Origin: Thermodesulfovibrio sp. 3462-1
GTDB lineage: Bacteria; Nitrospirota; Thermodesulfovibrionia; Thermodesulfovibrionales; Thermodesulfovibrionaceae
Assembly: GCF_040451425.1 (NCBI RefSeq)
Contig: NZ_CP144374.1
Span: 1,156,501 to 1,220,500, forward strand
Length of the DNA stretch: 64,000 nucleotides
Reading direction: 5' to 3'
Below, piece by piece: positions 3,056-37,114 of this stretch. Position 1 is the stretch's first letter, and the number at the start of each line of letters is the position of its first letter. The notes below the pieces were generated by a model. It saw only the letters and a list, made by a program, of their open reading frames with translations, was not told the origin of the DNA and made no database searches. The translations under genes and the position numbers were made by a program.

Positions 3056-3806
3056 AGCCTGCATTTATATTTTTGGAAGCAAGTTCAATTTTATTTTTAC
3101 CACTTCTTTTTGCCTGATAAAGTGCCATATCAGCTCTGTGTATTGCCTCTGTTAAGTTGTCATTCGTATCAATCTCTGTTATGCCAACACTTACAGTGAT
3201 AAAAATTTTTTCGCTTCCTGCTTTAACTGGTTTTTTAGCTATATTTTCTCTTACTCTTTCCAGTGCCATTAAAGCTTTTATCTCATCAGTGTCTGGAAGA
3301 ATTATCAAAAATTCTTCTCCTCCGTATCTTGAAACTACATCGGTTGCTCTTAAAAAATTTTTAATCTGCAAAGCAACATGATTTAAAATCCTATCGCCTA
3401 CAAGGTGTCCAAAGTTGTCATTTATAGATTTAAAGTTATCTATATCAACCATTGCTATAGACAAATGCTGCTTATTTCTTTTTATCCTTGCCATCTCTTC
3501 TATCAATCTATTTATCCCAGCTGTTCTATTGTAAACTGAAGTTAGTTCATCAAAATAAAGTTGATTTTCAACTTTTTCAAAAGAATTATGTATTATTTTT
3601 TCCATTTTTCTTTTCAATATTTTAGCAATCAATAAATTAGCCAACACTGAGATTGCTCCTCCTAATGAAATAAGCAAAATAAGTTCTTTCTTGTCATATT
3701 GGCCAGAAATAAAAACAAATGACAAAGCAATTATCAAAAATGCATTCAAGGCAATAAATTTATTGATATCTTTTGTTATGTTCATTACAAGTATTTTAGG
3801 ATTCAT
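3042..3806 (-). CDS. Membrane-anchored GGDEF diguanylate cyclase
   Basis: This predicted diguanylate cyclase makes c-di-GMP from two GTP. The 254 residues contain two N-terminal membrane segments (about 17-34 and 42-62), a short linker, and a GGDEF domain from about residue 85. The catalytic signature is GGEEF (162-166). Five residues upstream sits RATD (153-156), a canonical RxxD product-inhibition site, so activity and feedback control are both predicted. No sensor domain is visible apart from the membrane anchor. Start ATG 3806 has the Shine-Dalgarno AGGAGG six bases upstream. It is a single gene convergent with recG and has its own promoter at 3874-3902. The signal it senses cannot be told. 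Confidence 0.9.
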   Translation of the reverse strand: MNPKILVMNITKDINKFIALNAFLIIALSFVFISGQYDKKELILLISLGGAISVLANLLIAKILKRKMEKIIHNSFEKVENQLYFDELTSVYNRTAGINRLIEEMARIKRNKQHLSIAMVDIDNFKSINDNFGHLVGDRILNHVALQIKNFLRATDVVSRYGGEEFLIILPDTDEIKALMALERVRENIAKKPVKAGSEKIFITVSVGITEIDTNDNLTEAIHRADMALYQAKRSGKNKIELASKNINAGFKLS

Positions 3807-27405: not shown

Positions 27406-28130
27406 AAGAAGCCTCTCTTAAAGTATCAATTCTTAGTCATACACCAGACCCTGAAGAGGTAGTTGCTCTTTCTGCAAGACTCTGTTACAGCCCGGTAGGG
27501 ATTGATGAATTAAAAAAAAAGTTAACAGAAGATGAAAAAGAAAGATTAATTAATCTTTTAAGAGAAAATGGACATCTCAGTCCTTTTGAACATGTCAGTT
27601 TCAGTTTTGCTGTTGAAGGAATCTCAAGGGCATGTTCTCATCAACTTGTAAGACATAGAATTGCCTCTTACAGTCAACAATCGCAGAGATATGTAAGTGA
27701 AGAAAAAGGCTTTGATTTTATAATTCCACATACAATAAATGAAAATGAAGAAATAAGAAAAATTTTTCTTGAAGCAATGCAAAAAGCTCATGAATACTAC
27801 TGCAGAATTCTTCAGGCGCTGGAAAAACAGGGATTAAAAGGAGAACTGGCACGACAGGATGCAAGATTTGTCCTTCCAAATGCTGCTGAAACTAAAATAG
27901 TTATTACAATGAATGCAAGAGAATTACTTCATTTTTTCAGAGTTCGATGCTGTAATCGTGCTCAATGGGAGATAAGAGAACTTGCAACAGAGATGTTAAA
28001 ACTTGTAAAAAAAATTGCTCCAAGAATTTTTAAAGACGCAGGACCTGCTTGTGTTAGAGGACATTGCCCAGAAGGGAATTTCAGCTGTGGAAAAATAAAA
28101 GAAGTAAGGAAAAAGTTTAAAAATTTGTGA
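27402..28130 (+). CDS. thyX: Flavin-dependent thymidylate synthase
   Basis: Methylates dUMP to dTMP using FAD and methylene-THF. The 242 residues contain the ThyX signature RHRIASYSQQSQRY, and a C-terminal substrate-binding block LPNAAETKIVITMNARELLHFFRVRCCNRAQWEIR. No ThyA is in the window. It is translationally coupled to hisB by an ATGA overlap. Confidence 0.95.
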   Translation: MKEASLKVSILSHTPDPEEVVALSARLCYSPVGIDELKKKLTEDEKERLINLLRENGHLSPFEHVSFSFAVEGISRACSHQLVRHRIASYSQQSQRYVSEEKGFDFIIPHTINENEEIRKIFLEAMQKAHEYYCRILQALEKQGLKGELARQDARFVLPNAAETKIVITMNARELLHFFRVRCCNRAQWEIRELATEMLKLVKKIAPRIFKDAGPACVRGHCPEGNFSCGKIKEVRKKFKNL

Positions 28131-29052: not shown

Positions 29053-29451
29053 TTAAGAGCTGCCTTTGAAATTTTTCGTAAACTCAATAATTTTCTTTAT
29101 TGTTTCCTCTGATAAATCATGTTCCATCTTATGAGCATCTCTCTGGGCTGTCTCTGGAGTTACTTTAAGAATTTCAGTTAAAAATTTATAAAGGATTCTT
29201 TTTTTGCTTTCAATTTCTTTTGCTATTTTAAGTCCTTTTTCAGTCAATGTGATATATTCATATTTCTGATAGTTTATTAGCCCTTTCTCAGCAAGGCTTT
29301 TTGCAGCAATAACTGCACTTGACAGTTTTACATTTCTTTTTTTTGCAATATCCTTTATCCTCGCAATAGGAGCAATTTTCAAGATTTCAAAAATGTCATA
29401 TAAATAATCTTCAAGATTTTCAGTTAGTTCTAATTTTATTTTAGCATTCAT
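29053..29451 (-). CDS. DtxR/MntR-family metal-dependent transcriptional regulator
   Basis: A winged-helix repressor of the DtxR/MntR family that would bind operators when loaded with Fe(II) or Mn(II). About 132 residues. The N-terminal DNA-binding part is ENLEDYLYDIFEILK, RIKDIAKKRNVKLSSAVIAAKSLAEKGLI, with YEYITLTEKGLKIA as the wing. The dimerisation and metal helix contains AHKMEHDLSEETI. There is no SH3-like third domain, as in MntR. Start 29451 is chosen because TATAAT (29458-29463) ends 6 bases before it; a GTG/ATG start 39 bases earlier would place that box inside the gene. Its place beside feo genes makes iron the likely signal. Confidence 0.85.
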   Translation of the reverse strand: MNAKIKLELTENLEDYLYDIFEILKIAPIARIKDIAKKRNVKLSSAVIAAKSLAEKGLINYQKYEYITLTEKGLKIAKEIESKKRILYKFLTEILKVTPETAQRDAHKMEHDLSEETIKKIIEFTKNFKGSS

Positions 29452-29471
29452 ATAACTATTATAGCATAAAA

Positions 29472-30140
29472 TTAAATCAAACCAATCCATGTTTTTACCT
29501 TACCTTCAACTTCAATTAAAGCATTAACCACATCAGGGTCAAATAAAATTCCGCTGTTTTTTGTTATTTCTTCCATGGCTTCATCCCACGAGAAAGCCTT
29601 TCTGTAAGGTCTTTCCTGCAAAAGAGCACTTAATACATCAGCTACTGCTATAATTCTTGCACCTAAAGGAATATCTTTTTCCCTCAGTCCCTTAGGATAT
29701 CCACTTCCATTCCATCTTTCATGATGATAAAGAACCATCTCACATATTCCACTCTTTATACAAAAATTCACTCTTGATAAAATTTTAGCTCCATATTCAG
29801 GATGCCTTTTTATAATTTCAAATTCTTCGGAAGTTAGTTTATCAGGTTTTAACAAAATACTTTCAGGAATAAATATTTTCCCTATATCATGCAAATGCCC
29901 AGCTACATGAATAATATCTGCTGCATAACCAGGAAACCCCAAAGTTAATGCTAACATGCAACTAATAACTGCTACTTGTTCAGAATGTTTGAACGTAAAT
30001 TTGTCCTTAGAATCAATAGCACTTCCTAAAGCCTCACTAAATTCATGGATATTAATAAAGTTTCTTTGAGATGCGATAGAACATAGTTTCTGAATCTCGA
30101 AAACTTGCTCTTTAGTGAGTTTCTTCATTTTTATCACCAT
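29472..30140 (-). CDS. HD-GYP domain protein (c-di-GMP phosphodiesterase type)
   Basis: About 223 residues of HD-GYP fold, a family that hydrolyses cyclic di-nucleotides. It has the HD pair in AGHLHDIGK, then VLYHHERWNGSGYPKGL with an intact GYP, and GARIIAVADVLSAL. There is no N-terminal sensor domain. Start ATG 30140 has no Shine-Dalgarno but has TATAAG 7 bases upstream; a longer GTG start at 30197 would translate through a 10-bp hairpin and is unlikely. It lies between the NifX-like gene and the DtxR-type regulator. A decayed second copy is at 35885-36015. Confidence 0.87.
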   Translation of the reverse strand: MVIKMKKLTKEQVFEIQKLCSIASQRNFINIHEFSEALGSAIDSKDKFTFKHSEQVAVISCMLALTLGFPGYAADIIHVAGHLHDIGKIFIPESILLKPDKLTSEEFEIIKRHPEYGAKILSRVNFCIKSGICEMVLYHHERWNGSGYPKGLREKDIPLGARIIAVADVLSALLQERPYRKAFSWDEAMEEITKNSGILFDPDVVNALIEVEGKVKTWIGLI

Positions 30141-30155
30141 TTTTTTTCTTATAGA

Positions 30156-30180
30156 ATTGGGGAGGATAAACCTCCCCAAT
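30156..30180. terminator. Perfect 10-bp hairpin between NifX-like and HD-GYP genes
   Basis: ATTGGGGAGG (30156-30165) and CCTCCCCAAT (30171-30180) form a perfect stem with a 5-base loop. It lies just after the NifX-like stop on the minus strand. No U-run follows directly, so it may be a processing or stabilising hairpin rather than an intrinsic terminator. Confidence 0.5.
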
Positions 30181-30186
30181 AAAAAT

Positions 30187-30573
30187 TTAGCAACCACCTT
30201 CTTTGCCTAAATGAGCTGGCTCTGTCGAAGCTTTAAGAGGCATTTGCAAATTTCCTTTTTCAATAGACTCAATAACCTGTTGAACAGAAAGTTTTACTCC
30301 AGGATGAAGTTTAACACCATGGCTTGTCAATGTTTCAAAAGGTTTTGGACCTATTAATACTGTAATTACATGTTTTACTCCTTTCCCAATAAGAAATTCT
30401 GCAGCCGTTATTCCTCTTGAAGATTCTAATTTAGCTCCAGGATTCTCTGCAGCTTCCCATTTTTTTGTAGCTGGATCATAAATAATAAAATAAGGAGTTA
30501 CTCCGAAATGAACCAATACCTCTGATTCCAAAGTGCTACCTCCTGCTAGGATTGCTACTTTTCCTTCTAACAT
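30187..30573 (-). CDS. NifX/NifB-type dinitrogenase iron-molybdenum cofactor-binding family protein
   Basis: A 128-residue protein of the NifX/NafY/NifB-C-terminal fold (COG1433), proteins that bind Fe-S or FeMo-cofactor precursors. Family features are KVAILAGGSTLESEVLVHFG, YFIIYDP, and AAEFLIGKGVKHVITVLIGPKPFETL. No nitrogenase gene is in the window, so it is not evidence for nitrogen fixation; such proteins are common in anaerobes next to metal genes. It is co-directional with and 18 bases after the DUF2325 gene. The C-terminus ends in a lone cysteine. Confidence 0.82.
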   Translation of the reverse strand: MLEGKVAILAGGSTLESEVLVHFGVTPYFIIYDPATKKWEAAENPGAKLESSRGITAAEFLIGKGVKHVITVLIGPKPFETLTSHGVKLHPGVKLSVQQVIESIEKGNLQMPLKASTEPAHLGKEGGC

Positions 30574-30591: not shown

Positions 30592-30900
30592 TTAGGTTGT
30601 TTTATCCGCCAAAGGCGGAAATTGCTGTTTTTGTAAAGATTCAATACATTTTCTCAGAGAACTTATTCCACAACTGTGGCACATCAAGCAGGGACATTGC
30701 ATGTTCATTTTTTTTAGTATTGCTTTGAGTTCATGGGAGACCTTGTTCGTAAAAACAATTACTCCATCTACTTTTCCCATCTTTTTTTCTAAATTCTTTT
30801 CAAGTTTTGTAAAAACTTTCAGCGTTACATTCATTTTTTTTGCTTCTTCAAAATAATGTCTTTCAAGCCTGTCCATTCCTCCAATAAGTGCTATGCACAT
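30592..30900 (-). CDS. DUF2325 family protein
   Basis: A 102-residue protein. The N-terminus IALIGGMDRLERHYFEEAKK and central KVDGVIVFTNKVSHELK fit the Rossmann-like DUF2325 family. The C-terminal segment CPCLMCHSCGISSLRKC has five cysteines and could bind metal. The start has AGGAGG upstream. The last codons encode a small hairpin (CCGCC/GGCGG at about 30605-30619). It is first in a transcript with the NifX-like gene, behind a strong promoter and palindromic operator, so metal-dependent control is inferred. Confidence 0.75.
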   Translation of the reverse strand: MCIALIGGMDRLERHYFEEAKKMNVTLKVFTKLEKNLEKKMGKVDGVIVFTNKVSHELKAILKKMNMQCPCLMCHSCGISSLRKCIESLQKQQFPPLADKTT

Positions 30901-30928: not shown

Positions 30929-30946
30929 AATTAGATTAATCTAATT
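30929..30946. promoter_or_regulatory. 18-bp perfect palindrome, candidate DtxR-type operator
   Basis: AATTAGATTAATCTAATT reads identically on both strands. The inner TTAGATTAATCTAA resembles DtxR/IdeR-type operators such as TTAGGTTAACCTAA. It overlaps the -10 box of the DUF2325 promoter, where a repressor would block RNA polymerase. The DtxR/MntR-family protein at 29053 is the obvious candidate to bind it; that pairing is inference. Confidence 0.6.
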
Positions 30947-31136: not shown

Positions 31137-33284
31137 TTATTCTAATCCCAATAATCTTCCGCCTTGATAAACAACAAAAGCAGTTATCCACGGCAAAATT
31201 AAATAGATAATTAATACCCACCCCAATGTTTTCCATCCAAATTCAGCTCTCAGAGTAAAGGCAAAAGTAAGGCATGGTAAATAAAGTAAAACAAAAACTA
31301 AAAAAGCGTAAGCACTTAATGGAGTAAATACTGTTTGAAGCTTATTTTGAAGCTCTTCTGGTTGTTCTTCTGTTTCCCAGGCTGATATTCCAAATCTTGA
31401 AAAAACATTATAAAAAGCCTCTCCCACAGCAGAAACAAATCCAGCAAAAATATTTTTTATTTCTTCACTGAAAGCAGGTTGTTCTTTTTCCTCTTTTTTC
31501 TCTGGAACATAAATCTCTGCCATTGTAGTTACAACCACTTCTTTCGCTATCACACCTGTTATTAAAGCAGAAGTAGCCTGCCAATTACCAAATCCAAGAG
31601 GTTCAAAAACAGGGCTTACTGTTTGCCCAATTTTTCCAAGATATGAATTTTCTTTTTCAACTCCATATGGTGTATTTAATAAAAACCAAAATACAATAGA
31701 GGAAGCAAAAATAAATGTTCCAGCTTTAATCAGAAAATGTTTAAGTTTCTGCCATGTATGAATTCTTAAATCTCTTAATGTTGGAATTCTGTATGGAGGA
31801 AGCTCCATAATAAATGGAGGAGTAGGTCCTTTAAAGAGAGTATTTTTAAGGATAAAACCAACTACAATCCCCATAATTATTCCTAATATGTAAAGAGACC
31901 AAAGCACTGTAGCTCCGTTAGCAGTGAAAAAAGCACCTATAAAAAGCACATATACTGGAAGCCTTGCACCACATGAGATAGGTGGACATATCATTGCAGT
32001 AAGCTTTCTATCTCTTTCTGTTTCAAGAACTCTTGTTGCATAAATAGATGGAACATTGCATCCAAATCCTAAAACCAAAGGAATGAAAGATTTTCCATGT
32101 AGCCCTATAAAATGCATAAGTCTATCCATTACAAAAGCAGCTCTTGCCATATATCCGCTTCCTTCAAGTAAAGTCATAAGAAACATAATAATTCCAATAA
32201 GAGGAACAAAAACTAAAACAGCTCCAACTCCTGTAATAATTCCATCAGTAACAAGAGAAACAAGCCATTCTGGAGAATTTAAGGCATTAAGCCCCACCGT
32301 TGCCCAACGTTTAATTGGTCCTGATATTAATCCATCAATCCAGTCGCTAAAAGGCTGTGAAAAATCAAAGGCAAGTTTAAAGGCAAGCCACATTATAGCG
32401 AGAAATATTGGAATCCCAAGATATCTATTCAAAACGATTTTGTCTATCTTTTGTGTTAAGTCAATTCTTGCCACATCTTTTTTTCTCAGAACTTCTTGTG
32501 TTATACCGTGAGCTATTCCATATCTTATTTCAGCAAGCATTGATTCAATATCTTCCTCTTGGGCTTTAAGAATATGTGATTTCGCTTTCTTAAGAAACTC
32601 TTCCTCTCCTGTAAAACCTGTTTCCTTGAGGACCCTTTCATCTTCCTCAAGAAGCTTTAAACAAAGCCATCTTATCGGATAAATCTCAATTAATTCCTTA
32701 CGAGATTGCCTTATTCCATTTTCAATTATCTTTAATGCATTTTCCACATCTGCTCCATAATTAAGTATTCTGGGTCTAAATTTATCTGGAGAGTCAGCAA
32801 TTTCTTTTATAGCTTGAAGTAATTCCTTTATTCCTTCTTTTCTTGTAGCAACAGTTGGAACTACTTTTATACCAAGTAGTTGCTCCATTGCATTTGTATT
32901 TATCTCGTACCCCTTTTTCTTTGCCTCATCATAGATGTTTAACGCAACAACCACAGGAATTCCAAGTTCAAGAAGTTGAATTGCAAGATAAAGGTTTCTT
33001 TCAAGATTTGTTGAATCAACAACATCAATTATGATGTCAGGTTTTTCTTTTACAATAAAATCCCTTGCAATAATTTCTTCCTGGGTATAAGGACTAAGAC
33101 TGTATGTTCCAGGAAGGTCAACGAGATCAATAGTTAAATCATCAACTTTAAATGTAGCTGTCTTTTTCTCAACTGTTACTCCAGGCCAGTTACCTACATA
33201 AAGATTTGTGCCTGCTATTGCATTTATAAGAGTTGACTTTCCTGAGTTTGGATTTCCTGCTACAGCAACTTTAATTGTCTTCAT
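31137..33284 (-). CDS. feoB: Ferrous iron transport protein B
   Basis: The GTPase-gated Fe(II) permease of the inner membrane. The 715 residues start with a G domain: G1 GNPNSGKST (10-18), G3 DLPGTYSL (from 56), G4 NIYD. A helical domain and about ten membrane segments with gate motifs such as GFGCNVPSIYATRVLE and CPPISCGARLPVY follow. A cytoplasmic loop near residues 590-650 is rich in Lys and Glu. It overlaps feoA by 4 bases and ends just before a terminator. The family is well established as Fe(II)-specific in anaerobes. Confidence 0.97.
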   Translation of the reverse strand: MKTIKVAVAGNPNSGKSTLINAIAGTNLYVGNWPGVTVEKKTATFKVDDLTIDLVDLPGTYSLSPYTQEEIIARDFIVKEKPDIIIDVVDSTNLERNLYLAIQLLELGIPVVVALNIYDEAKKKGYEINTNAMEQLLGIKVVPTVATRKEGIKELLQAIKEIADSPDKFRPRILNYGADVENALKIIENGIRQSRKELIEIYPIRWLCLKLLEEDERVLKETGFTGEEEFLKKAKSHILKAQEEDIESMLAEIRYGIAHGITQEVLRKKDVARIDLTQKIDKIVLNRYLGIPIFLAIMWLAFKLAFDFSQPFSDWIDGLISGPIKRWATVGLNALNSPEWLVSLVTDGIITGVGAVLVFVPLIGIIMFLMTLLEGSGYMARAAFVMDRLMHFIGLHGKSFIPLVLGFGCNVPSIYATRVLETERDRKLTAMICPPISCGARLPVYVLFIGAFFTANGATVLWSLYILGIIMGIVVGFILKNTLFKGPTPPFIMELPPYRIPTLRDLRIHTWQKLKHFLIKAGTFIFASSIVFWFLLNTPYGVEKENSYLGKIGQTVSPVFEPLGFGNWQATSALITGVIAKEVVVTTMAEIYVPEKKEEKEQPAFSEEIKNIFAGFVSAVGEAFYNVFSRFGISAWETEEQPEELQNKLQTVFTPLSAYAFLVFVLLYLPCLTFAFTLRAEFGWKTLGWVLIIYLILPWITAFVVYQGGRLLGLE

Positions 33285-33508
33285 TGCATCACCTCCACTT
33301 CTATTTTTTCTGCCTCAGATTTTCTCAATGAAAGATGATAATTTTTCACTACAATATCAATAGGATCACCAAGAGGAGCAACCTTTTCTACAATTATAGG
33401 TTCTCCATCTAAAACTCCCATATCCATAAGCCTTCTTTTGATTATTCCCTTTGTTTTTATTGACAAAATTTTTGCCTTTTGTCCAACTTTAAGTTCGCTA
33501 AGTTTCAT
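33281..33508 (-). CDS. feoA: FeoA family protein (second copy)
   Basis: A 75-residue SH3-like FeoA protein, the small cytoplasmic partner of FeoB. It has the family pattern LSELKVGQKAKI, KRRLMDMGVLDGEPI and NYHLSLRKSEAEKIEV. It is coupled to feoB by a 4-base overlap and follows another feoA directly. With the FeoA domain of the upstream GGDEF protein, this makes three FeoA modules in one operon. Confidence 0.93.
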   Translation of the reverse strand: MKLSELKVGQKAKILSIKTKGIIKRRLMDMGVLDGEPIIVEKVAPLGDPIDIVVKNYHLSLRKSEAEKIEVEVMQ

Positions 33509-33732
33509 TGTATCCTCCTTATCAAAATTTTCATTGCCATTCCTCTACCAATAGCAACTCTTGATTCATCAATTTTTAAAAGTATCGGGCCACGTTCTTG
33601 ATTGCTTAATACCTCAACTACCTTACCAGGGAAAATTCCTATATCTCTAAGACGACAAAAGAGGGCTCTGCCAGCTTTAATAAAATCTACAATTTCAACT
33701 TTCTCTCCTTCTTGAACCAATGCAAGCGGCAT
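33505..33732 (-). CDS. feoA: FeoA family protein (first copy)
   Basis: A 75-residue FeoA-like SH3 domain: ALVQEGEKVEIVDFIKAGRALFCRL, then DIGIFPGKVVEVL and SRVAIGRGMAMKILI. It diverges from the second copy, so the two probably have different contacts on FeoB. GTG 33735 or ATG 33732 may be used, both behind AGGAGG; ATG is annotated. It overlaps the next feoA by 4 bases and lies 69 bases after the FeoA-GGDEF gene, a gap in which I see no promoter. Confidence 0.9.
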   Translation of the reverse strand: MPLALVQEGEKVEIVDFIKAGRALFCRLRDIGIFPGKVVEVLSNQERGPILLKIDESRVAIGRGMAMKILIRRIQ

Positions 33733-33804
33733 CACTATAAAAACCTCCTTTTTTAAAAAATTTTAAATCACCATAGATTGCATGATTTTTTATGTAGCTT
33801 CATG

Positions 33805-34572
33805 TCACATTTTCCAGAAAAAAGTGCATACTCGATTTTTACCTCTGCTCTTTGCTGCATAAAGAGCTTTATCAACTTTTTCAATCAATTCATTCATCGG
33901 AACATATGGAGGAACTCCATCAACTCCTGCGCTTATTTTTATCACTTTTCCATGCGGTGGTATATCAAGGCATTGAGCACATTCTCTCAATCTCTCAGTA
34001 ACTACATAAGATGATTCTACATTCAGTCCTTTCATCAATATGAGAAACTCTTCACCACCCCATCTAAAAACTATATCTGTTCTTCTCACATTTTTCCTGA
34101 GCATACTGCCAAGTTCACTTAAAACTCTGTCTCCAAAAGCATGTCCGTAAAGATCATTAATTTTTTTAAAATCATCAATATCTATAAGGATAATTGACAG
34201 AGGTATTTTAATATTTGTAACTTTCTCATACTCTGCAGGTAAAATCAGGGAAGCTGCATTTTTATTTAAACAACCTGTAAGAGAATCATAAAAAGCCTGT
34301 TCTTTGTAAAAGTTATACCATGACCTTATAGGTCTTACTCTAATAAATTCTGCTATCTCTGCATCAAAAGCTAAATAAGAATCGGCAACTTTTAATACAA
34401 CTTTTTTATTCAACAAAGGATCAAAAGAAATTAATTCAATTAAAACTCCTTCTCTTACTCCCATATCTCTCAGTTTTTTAGCTAATGGAATATTTCTATC
34501 TATATACACAATCTCAGCAGTTTCACCAATGTATAACTCTTTTAGGGATAAAAAATTTTTCCCTGAAATCAT
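33805..34572 (-). CDS. FeoA domain-GGDEF diguanylate cyclase fusion
   Basis: A 255-residue protein joining two domains not normally found together. Residues about 7-80 are a FeoA/SH3-like domain with the family pattern LSLKELYIGETAEI, KKLRDMGVREGVLIEL and DSYLAFDAEIAEFIRV. Residues about 90-250 are a GGDEF domain with active site GGEEF (172-176) and an intact inhibitory site RRTD (163-166) five residues before it. It has no membrane segment. The gene starts 13 bases after the porin stop and precedes feoA-feoA-feoB, so it is made with the Fe(II) transporter. I infer that the FeoA domain docks on FeoB or senses iron status and controls c-di-GMP synthesis. Both domain assignments are strong; the function is unproven. 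Confidence 0.88.
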   Translation of the reverse strand: MISGKNFLSLKELYIGETAEIVYIDRNIPLAKKLRDMGVREGVLIELISFDPLLNKKVVLKVADSYLAFDAEIAEFIRVRPIRSWYNFYKEQAFYDSLTGCLNKNAASLILPAEYEKVTNIKIPLSIILIDIDDFKKINDLYGHAFGDRVLSELGSMLRKNVRRTDIVFRWGGEEFLILMKGLNVESSYVVTERLRECAQCLDIPPHGKVIKISAGVDGVPPYVPMNELIEKVDKALYAAKSRGKNRVCTFFWKM

Positions 34573-34585
34573 TTTAAAATTCTCC

Positions 34586-35719
34586 TTAAAAGTTAATGTT
34601 AAATCTTACTCCATATATATGTCCTGCTTTTGTGCCTTCTTGACGGGTTTTGTCCTGTATGTATTGATAATCAAGGGTTATGTCAGAGCTTAAAAACTTA
34701 TAAGCAAACAACTTAAACTTTACATAGGATTCAAATACTTGACTACGACTCAAATCCAGATTCTTTGATGGACTCTTTAAATATGCATAACCAACTCCCA
34801 CTTCATCATCCTTTCTCCCCCACACTGATCCATTAAGATTTAATCCAAATGAAATCATTCTGTTGTAATCCACTGCTGCAGAGTCATCCTGCCATCCTGC
34901 ACGGAGGAAAGCTCCAAGTGTGTCTTTTATTAGTTGTTGGTCAAAGGATACTCCAATCCCTCTTAATGCCTTATATGCATCTGCATCCCAGTTTTCAAAC
35001 TTCTTGTTTGTTGTATAGGCATAAAGCCTGTAGTTTCCCTCACCAAGTGAGCTTTCAACTTTGTATCCAATCTGTGCACCTATCCAGTTATAGTTTTTTA
35101 CATCCATATTTTCATTTTCATTTTTTGAACGCATTCCTACTAATCTTAAATGAAATCCACCTGCTTCAAATTCTGCTGCTACACCAGCATCATAGCTTGG
35201 TAAATTAGCTAAAGGATTATGAACCAGAGCTTCATTCATAAATTGATGTAATTCATCTGCTGCATAGGCATTGTCATCAATAAAAGCTGTTGAATCAATT
35301 ATTCCTGCTGTTAGCTTAATGGACATATCTTTCTGAATTGGAAACTTATGAGAATACCACAACTCCTGTAAGTGATCCCTTGAATGACCATTAATATTTT
35401 GAAGATCAACAAATAAATCATCAGCATTGGGATTGAGCGTAAAAGGATAATCTCCTTGTCTATGAAATCCGCTTCCTTTTGCAAAGCTTGCCCTTACAAA
35501 AAATTCATCGTTTTCAGTTGGTTTAAGGGATACATTAAAATCAATAACTGCAGAGCCACGATCCTTGTTTTCAACATTACCTTGAGCTTTGTTGAGCCAT
35601 TGATAAACTGTTGTTGCTGAACCTGAAATTGATAGCCACTCTGTAATGTCAGCTGCATAGGAATTTAAAGAAATAAATAAAACAAATAAAAACGCAAAAA
35701 AACAACTTAAACTTTTCAT
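34586..35719 (-). CDS. Outer-membrane beta-barrel porin-like protein
   Basis: About 377 residues. The signal peptide (MKSLSCFFAFLFVLFISLNSYA) is followed by alternating polar and aromatic strands, and the protein ends in a C-terminal phenylalanine (GVRFNINF), as barrel proteins do. It resembles porins of deltaproteobacteria and Thermodesulfovibrio but has no residue-level clue to substrate. Its place as first gene of the feo operon suggests passage of Fe(II) or a chelate. ATG 35719 has GGAGG upstream and starts the signal peptide. A second in-frame ATG at 35782 also has AAAGGAG, and would add 21 charged residues before the signal. Confidence 0.8.
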   Translation of the reverse strand: MKSLSCFFAFLFVLFISLNSYAADITEWLSISGSATTVYQWLNKAQGNVENKDRGSAVIDFNVSLKPTENDEFFVRASFAKGSGFHRQGDYPFTLNPNADDLFVDLQNINGHSRDHLQELWYSHKFPIQKDMSIKLTAGIIDSTAFIDDNAYAADELHQFMNEALVHNPLANLPSYDAGVAAEFEAGGFHLRLVGMRSKNENENMDVKNYNWIGAQIGYKVESSLGEGNYRLYAYTTNKKFENWDADAYKALRGIGVSFDQQLIKDTLGAFLRAGWQDDSAAVDYNRMISFGLNLNGSVWGRKDDEVGVGYAYLKSPSKNLDLSRSQVFESYVKFKLFAYKFLSSDITLDYQYIQDKTRQEGTKAGHIYGVRFNINF

Positions 35720-35814
35720 AATGCTTCCTCCTTTTTTTGTTTTAAAATTAGCTTCATCTAAATTTCTACGACTTCTATTCATTTTTTAAACTCCTTTAAA
35801 TTGTTATGATTATA

Positions 35815-36094: not shown

Positions 36095-37114
36095 TTAGGC
36101 AAATTGATAGCTCAGGTAAACTTTAGCTATGCCTTTCTGCTGGGCATATTTAAATACTTGAGGATTGACAACCTGATGAGTCACCATTAGGAGTATTTTT
36201 TCTTGAGCGTGAACTTTCTCTATTTTGCTTAATTTTTTTAAAAAAGCATCAATATCAGCCTTCTTTAGCTGTGTTTTTGCCTCGCCAACTATTATCAGTT
36301 CTTTGCCGTTCTTTCTTCCTTTACCAAATATATTCACTTCTTCATATCTGCCATCGGGAAGTTCAATGAAGTCTCTTATTAGCCTTCCTTCAACATCTAT
36401 TCCAAAGTCTTCCATAAGAAGTTTTGGCAAATGTTTGTAAGCTTCATTTTCAAGAATGTAACCTACTGTATTTGATAAACCTCCAAGATGTTCTCTTGTT
36501 TTTTTATGTTCTTCTGTAAGCTTCCTCAGAGATTCTTCTGTGCGTTTTTGTGCCTCAGCAAGTTCTTCCACTCTTTGTTCTGTGCGTTTTTGTGCTTCTG
36601 AGAGTTCCTGGATAGCTTTATCAAGGCGAGATACTTCTTTCTGCATTTCTTTCTGTGCCTCTGCAAGTTCAGCAACAGTTTGTTCAAGACGTGTAAGTCT
36701 CTCCTCTGCATGCTTCTGTGCCTCTGCAAGTTCAGCAACAGTTTGTTCAAGACGTGTAAGTCTCTCCTCTGCATGCTTCTGTGCCTCTGCAAGTTCAGCA
36801 ACAGTTTGTTCAAGACGTGTAAGTCTCTCCTCTGCATGCTTCTGTGCCTCAGCAAGTTCAGCAACAGTCTGTTCAAGACGTGTGAGTCTCTCCTCTGCAT
36901 GCTTCTGTGCCTCTGCAAGTTCCTTTACATTTTTTGATAGTTCTTTTACGTTTTCTGAAAGTTCTTCTACAGCCCTCTTTAAAGCAAGAAAATCTTCTTT
37001 TTTAACAACATCACCGATTGTTTGTTCGATAAGTCTCAAAATTTTTAAAAAAGCAGTTCTAACTGCGGGATCAAGTTTTTCAAGCTCTTCTATTAATTCA
37101 ATACCAAAAATCAT
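36095..37114 (-). CDS. Coiled-coil protein with C-terminal PD-(D/E)XK nuclease-like domain (DUF3782-like)
   Basis: A 339-residue protein of unknown role. After a helical N-terminus, residues about 50-210 form a long coiled coil. This includes four near-identical 21-residue repeats ([21 protein letters not shown]) and related degenerate ones. The C-terminal domain (about 225-339) shows [21 protein letters not shown] and [11 protein letters not shown], the E...E-x-K pattern of PD-(D/E)XK nuclease folds, then LLMVTHQV. Such DUF3782-type proteins are frequent in thermophiles and archaea. The repeats are nearly identical in DNA and so recently amplified. There is no Shine-Dalgarno; TATATT lies 6 bases before the ATG. 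Confidence 0.75.
36654..36905 (-). repeat. Four tandem 63-bp repeats within the coiled-coil gene
   Basis: Units start at 36654, 36717, 36780 and 36843 with a partial fifth at 36906. The first three are identical or nearly so and the fourth has a few changes. Each encodes 21 residues in frame (three heptads), so gain or loss of a unit keeps the coiled coil in register. Confidence 0.95.

Follow-up and report, generated by a model that had tools for sequence, protein, structure and literature searches.

The window, the whole stretch of 64,000 nucleotides from Thermodesulfovibrio sp. 3462-1 that was analysed, carries on its minus strand, in this order, the genes for an OprB-like porin, a FeoA-GGDEF fusion protein, FeoA, FeoA and FeoB, followed after a 236-base gap by genes for a DUF2325 protein, a NifX-type protein, an HD-GYP protein and a DtxR/MntR-family repressor (Table 1). 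A first-pass annotation, made from the sequence alone, had described a FeoA-type domain joined to a GGDEF domain and encoded in one operon with two feoA genes and feoB. The domain make-up was confirmed by Pfam matches to both families, and the operon by the shared strand and the short gaps between the genes. Because two other assemblies contain the fusion at the same position, it is no assembly artefact. FeoB is encoded by a separate gene and was found to be without a GGDEF domain (Pfam). A Pfam scan of the fusion and eight neighbouring proteins returned no CHASE4 domain, and no riboswitch or other Rfam family was detected between window positions 28000 and 38000.

Table 1. Features of the feo locus in the window (positions in the window; aa, amino acids).
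Feature	Position	Strand	Evidence or remark
DtxR/MntR-family metal-dependent repressor, two-domain	29053..29490	-	PF02742 62 bits, PF01325 38 bits
HD-GYP protein, putative c-di-GMP phosphodiesterase	29472..30197	-	PF13487 151 bits
NifX/dinitrogenase FeMo-cofactor-type protein	30187..30573	-	PF02579 63 bits
DUF2325 protein	30592..30900	-	PF10087 81 bits
Palindrome TTAGATTAATCTAA, putative DtxR-type operator	30931..30944	.	Sole perfect match in the genome
feoB, 715 aa	31137..33284	-	FeoB_N, Gate, FeoB_C; TIGR00437 above its cut-off
feoA, feoB-adjoining copy (A1)	33281..33508	-	PF04023 80 bits
feoA, upstream copy (A2)	33505..33735	-	PF04023 67 bits
FeoA-GGDEF fusion protein	33805..34572	-	ATG start, 255 aa
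GGDEF domain, residues 93-247	33832..34296	-	PF00990 135 bits, cut-off 23.8
GGEEF active-site motif, residues 172-176	34045..34059	-	ORF translation and GGDEF alignment
RxxD I-site motif, R163-D166	34075..34086	-	Invariant in 26 GGDEF rows
FeoA (SH3-like) domain, residues 9-81	34330..34548	-	PF04023 48 bits, cut-off 23; Foldseek to FeoA structures
OprB-like porin, 13 bases upstream of the fusion and first in the stretch	34586..35782	-	PF04966 53 bits
Weak palindrome copy, 12/14, upstream of the porin's likely true start	35748..35761	.	p about 0.09 by shuffling

Structures were predicted from alignments built from window, L055 and viral-contig sequences. The AlphaFold2 model of the whole fusion (mean pLDDT 85.8) contains SH3-like strands at residues 18-81, a helix at residues 83-94 and a GGDEF fold at residues 94-250; the linker between the domains is one 12-residue helix, with no long coiled coil. 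A Foldseek search with this model recovered solved cyclases, including PleD and WspR. When residues 1-92 were modelled alone, the top eight Foldseek matches were all FeoA structures (best matches: 3e19, 2k4y, 2k5f and 7r7b; target TM 0.65-0.88 in the top six), and the SH3 domains of the DtxR family (DtxR/IdeR/ScaR) ranked next. The earlier assignment of residues 1-85 to a FeoA fold was thus borne out, and the fusions of the two relatives described below also matched PF04023 (43 and 33 bits, cut-off 23). Stand-alone FeoA proteins (3e19, 7r7b and 2k5f) have the same fold as residues 9-81 and belong to the same sequence family, but carry no enzyme domain.

The catalytic part appears intact, as had been read from the GGEEF and RxxD motifs. 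The fusion was aligned to 25 further GGDEF rows and retains every one of the 30 invariant columns, among them D131, N139, D140, G172-F176 and the I-site residues R163/D166, and the domain is not visibly dead. A mixed FeoA/GGDEF alignment was dropped after MAFFT placed FeoA rows over the GGDEF part. The best explanation of these sequence and model features is that the protein acts as a diguanylate cyclase in the cytoplasm, with the FeoA domain as its input. The window encodes another GGDEF protein at about 3087-3593 (261 aa frame), and seven GGDEF matches and one PilZ match were found genome-wide.

Aligned to Bacteroides FeoA, the hydrophobic-clamp positions of the window fusion are L30, L34, M37, L67 and F69. 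Four of these five are hydrophobic in all three known fusions (L34, M37, L67 and F/L69), while position 30 varies among L, Q and A. The same four positions are protected on GTP-dependent docking of B. fragilis FeoA (PMC8980893). Bacteroides FeoA binds the GTP-state FeoB G-domain, apparently through the clamp, its docking slows GTP hydrolysis by FeoB, and a PxxP motif on FeoB has been proposed as the clamp's partner site (PMC8980893). PxxP is absent from 7 of the 8 feo-operon FeoB proteins of the genus. By analogy with the Bacteroides protein, we infer that the FeoA domain of the fusion binds FeoB.

Two further species of the genus carry the fusion, G005 (UBA2600, contig DDKK01000047) with 67% identity and G014 with 63-64% identity. 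In all three carriers it is encoded between the porin and feoA genes, with the porin 9-15 bases upstream, and the feo linkage is therefore conserved in every carrier found, these being three species of a single genus. A search with an N-terminal profile across the 176 genomes of the order detected no fusion in the other 173, and a search with the whole protein across 396 genomes of the phylum (best six candidates per genome) returned only GGDEF-type matches beyond the three carriers. Two peptide patterns run against 84,980 species genomes matched one carrier, UBA2600; independent fusions with a diverged FeoA part may exist outside the phylum. Several candidates were rejected on reading their sequences: the N-termini of those in G048 (coverage 9-252) and G259 (coverage 16-252) are not FeoA-like by eye and the proteins look like ordinary sensor cyclases, that in G006 (coverage 4-251) has a CBS-like two-repeat N-terminus rather than FeoA, and those in G001 and G003 look like membrane-anchored cyclases. 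Plasmid matches at 29% identity carry a diguanylate cyclase annotation only, and the viral-contig scan contained no stand-alone FeoA.

In five species of the genus feo genes occur without the fusion, which import therefore does not require. Four of these species have a complete feo operon in which feoA comes next after the porin, across a gap of 6-16 bases; in the fifth, G004, the feo genes lie at a contig end. On the FeoB tree, the window species is sister to G012 and G005 is sister to G002, both pairings well supported and both sister species lacking the fusion. The carriers are thus scattered, which makes repeated loss or exchange likely; the best fit is that the fusion is old and was lost several times, or was exchanged between members of the genus. 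The three FeoA parts of the fusions (61-65% identical between carriers) form one clade (99/97), which joins the A2 feoA branch with weak support (89/86), so that the fusion may derive from a copy of the neighbouring feoA. Across the same pairs of carriers, divergence of the fusion was similar to that of FeoB (dN 0.23-0.31 vs 0.20-0.25), as were the dN/dS ratios (0.10-0.20 vs 0.08-0.19), and by these sequence comparisons the fusion is under purifying selection.

The HD-GYP gene and the palindrome of Table 1 were both absent from the first-pass annotation. The HD-GYP protein contains the motifs HLHDIGK and HHERWNGSGYP, with both the HD pair and the HHExxxGxGYP pattern, and since these motifs are complete the locus encodes a predicted diguanylate cyclase together with an enzyme that probably degrades its product. 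An HD-GYP gene is present at the feo locus in two of the three fusion carriers; the feo locus of G005 is without one. The HD-GYP gene of the window shares bases with the start of the DtxR/MntR gene, and that of G014 with the end of the fusion gene. Among 16 genomes, the window HD-GYP protein is closest to the feo-locus HD-GYP protein of G014 (55%, 216 bits; next best 175 bits). The repressor scores nearer to MntR than to DtxR models, below the equivalog cut-offs of both, and in view of this resemblance the metal could be Mn(II).

The palindrome TTAGATTAATCTAA resembles DtxR-family operators, and from this likeness of sequence we take it to be a candidate operator. It lies directly after a TTGACA-17-TATAAT promoter of the DUF2325-NifX-HD-GYP-dtxR operon. 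The 1.82 Mb genome contains four sites with at most one mismatch to it; one of them is perfect, and another, a 13/14 copy, stands upstream of the genome's second feoA-feoB operon (G000:C1:1245941-1245954), which suggests, from sequence, a small metal regulon in the genus. The porin-fusion operon of the window has the weak copy only. The palindrome is present at 14/14 in G000, G014 and G008, and in G014 the perfect copy, placed after the promoter's -10 element, precedes the whole operon DUF2325-porin-fusion-HD-GYP-feoA-feoA-feoB; a clear palindrome is missing at the feo promoters of G002, G005, G011 and G012.

Some further features of these loci were recorded. In G014 a second feoA-feoB pair lies directly after the DtxR/MntR gene and adjoins the first feo operon (L036:2140-4690). 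The DUF2325 gene, downstream of feoB in the window, opens the feo operon in all relatives in which the operon start was seen; the DUF2325 proteins of the window and of L035, L036, L040, L041, L042 and L044 mostly have CHSCG or YHSCGLC in their C-terminal region, and a metal-related function is possible. Positions 36095-37114 of the window encode a coiled-coil protein that contains about four tandem repeats of nearly identical sequence. Its repeat number seems variable, and its G014 relative, near the feo genes (L036:4790-5536), has a shorter coiled-coil stretch.

The first-pass annotation had proposed an iron-import-coupled switch in which FeoB state or cytoplasmic Fe(II) gates the cyclase. 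Its structural premises, the FeoA fold and the intact GGDEF domain, are supported; gating by FeoB state stays a proposal, which we develop as follows. Our preferred reading, held tentatively on the basis of sequence, models and the Bacteroides analogy, is that FeoA docks the cyclase on FeoB and so ties c-di-GMP synthesis to metal import. At least at loci where the cyclase gene lies behind the palindrome, metal shortage would induce cyclase and importer together. The FeoA domain of the fusion would then bind the cytoplasmic G-domain of FeoB with a preference for the GTP state, as another FeoA does. The 12-residue helix linker is shorter than the usual coiled-coil stalk, so dimerisation would need another source, and for this reason we favour docking on neighbouring FeoB subunits as the event that would pair two GGDEF domains and turn synthesis on. 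The RxxD site would provide feedback inhibition of the cyclase, the HD-GYP enzyme would clear the signal, and the c-di-GMP level would in this way reflect import activity or a shortage of metal. The main weakness of docking, judged from the FeoB sequences, is the absence of the proposed PxxP partner site from most of them. The fuller version, in which the importer bears a self-contained circuit whose cyclase, tethered by FeoA, senses the GTP state of FeoB, whose HD-GYP enzyme, encoded at the same locus, clears the signal and whose DtxR/MntR-type repressor sets the amounts of all components, we regard as doubtful.

The coupling could also come about by shared expression alone, with the cyclase co-produced with the feo proteins under metal scarcity, its FeoA part a leftover, structural or dimerising element that makes no contact with FeoB, and its c-di-GMP released to the general pool. 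The same-strand operon with its short gaps and the DtxR-type palindromes at feo promoters agree with this account, as do the GGDEF and HD genes of the predicted iron regulon of Desulfovibrio, which have no FeoA (PMC545781). The FeoA parts of the three fusions, however, show the conservation that selection would lead one to expect and have kept the clamp residues, as a dispensable tail need not have done, and we consider coupling through expression alone rather unlikely.

The direction of signalling could instead be reversed, the GGDEF domain sensing c-di-GMP through the RxxD site, or GTP, and setting the engagement of FeoA with FeoB, so that c-di-GMP would control iron import. The preserved RxxD site and the slowing of FeoB GTP hydrolysis by docked FeoA (PMC8980893) would suit such control, but a pure c-di-GMP receptor has no need of the catalytic residues, all of which are intact; this reversal we judge improbable. 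Still less probable is direct gating of the cyclase by Fe(II) or Mn(II) bound to the FeoA domain itself. In DtxR proteins the SH3-like domain contributes to metal binding, and the FeoA part is structurally near the SH3 domains of DtxR, IdeR and ScaR; the FeoA structure from S. maltophilia, moreover, contains zinc (3mhx). Against this, residues 1-85 contain no Cys or His in any of the three carriers, which leaves Asp/Glu as the sole possible ligands, makes Fe(II) sensing by the domain itself unlikely and reduces the likelihood of the Fe(II) gating put forward in the first-pass annotation.

Returning to docking of the cyclase on FeoB, parts of the arrangement have counterparts in known systems. 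In B. fragilis FeoAB, FeoA likewise forms the N-terminus of another feo-operon protein, with the SH3-like fold and hydrophobic clamp, but is joined to the FeoB G-domain, whereas in the window it is joined to a signalling enzyme and accompanied by two normal feoA genes (PMC8980893). Ammonium transporter-GGDEF fusions (8qj3, 8qj4 and 8qpf) are nutrient transporter systems that also carry a diguanylate cyclase; there the cyclase is attached covalently, whereas the cyclase of the window is joined to a soluble accessory domain with a presumed link to FeoB. In the IsmP-ImcA system of P. aeruginosa, iron state sets c-di-GMP through protein contact with a diguanylate cyclase, but the iron sensor is the CHASE4 domain of IsmP, and neither FeoA nor a feo operon is involved (PMC10904736). 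The predicted iron regulons of Desulfovibrio and Geobacter place genes for GGDEF and HD-domain proteins under iron control with feoAB; the GGDEF gene and the HD gene predicted in the Fur regulon of Desulfovibrio are, unlike those of the window, separate genes at other loci with Fur boxes, an OprB porin-feoA-feoA-feoB operon is predicted in the iron regulon of Geobacter, and no FeoA-GGDEF protein is reported (PMC545781). A 2022 InterPro survey of 28,444 FeoA sequences lists lone FeoA, FeoA repeats and FeoAB fusions and does not mention FeoA-GGDEF, some of which its large 'separate ORF' class could hide (PMC8980893). No FeoA-GGDEF fusion was found among publications naming both FeoA and GGDEF, most of them represented by title or abstract. 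The earlier statement that no system of this kind had been described therefore holds for the fusion in the literature searched; in its wider sense it does not, since iron-linked control of c-di-GMP and transporter-fused cyclases are known.

The sequence of the locus suggests a direct link between iron import and c-di-GMP signalling. With carriers in three species of one genus, evidence of wider importance is limited. The role of FeoA is a long-open question, and its natural fusion to an enzyme that is easily and sensitively assayed opens its partner and timing to direct measurement. If the circuit described above were true, the importer would sense metal flux and FeoA would serve FeoB as a general adaptor. 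If c-di-GMP output tracks FeoB state, the importer would act as a second-messenger sensor through a detachable adaptor, and iron supply would be linked to lifestyle choice in anaerobic thermophiles.
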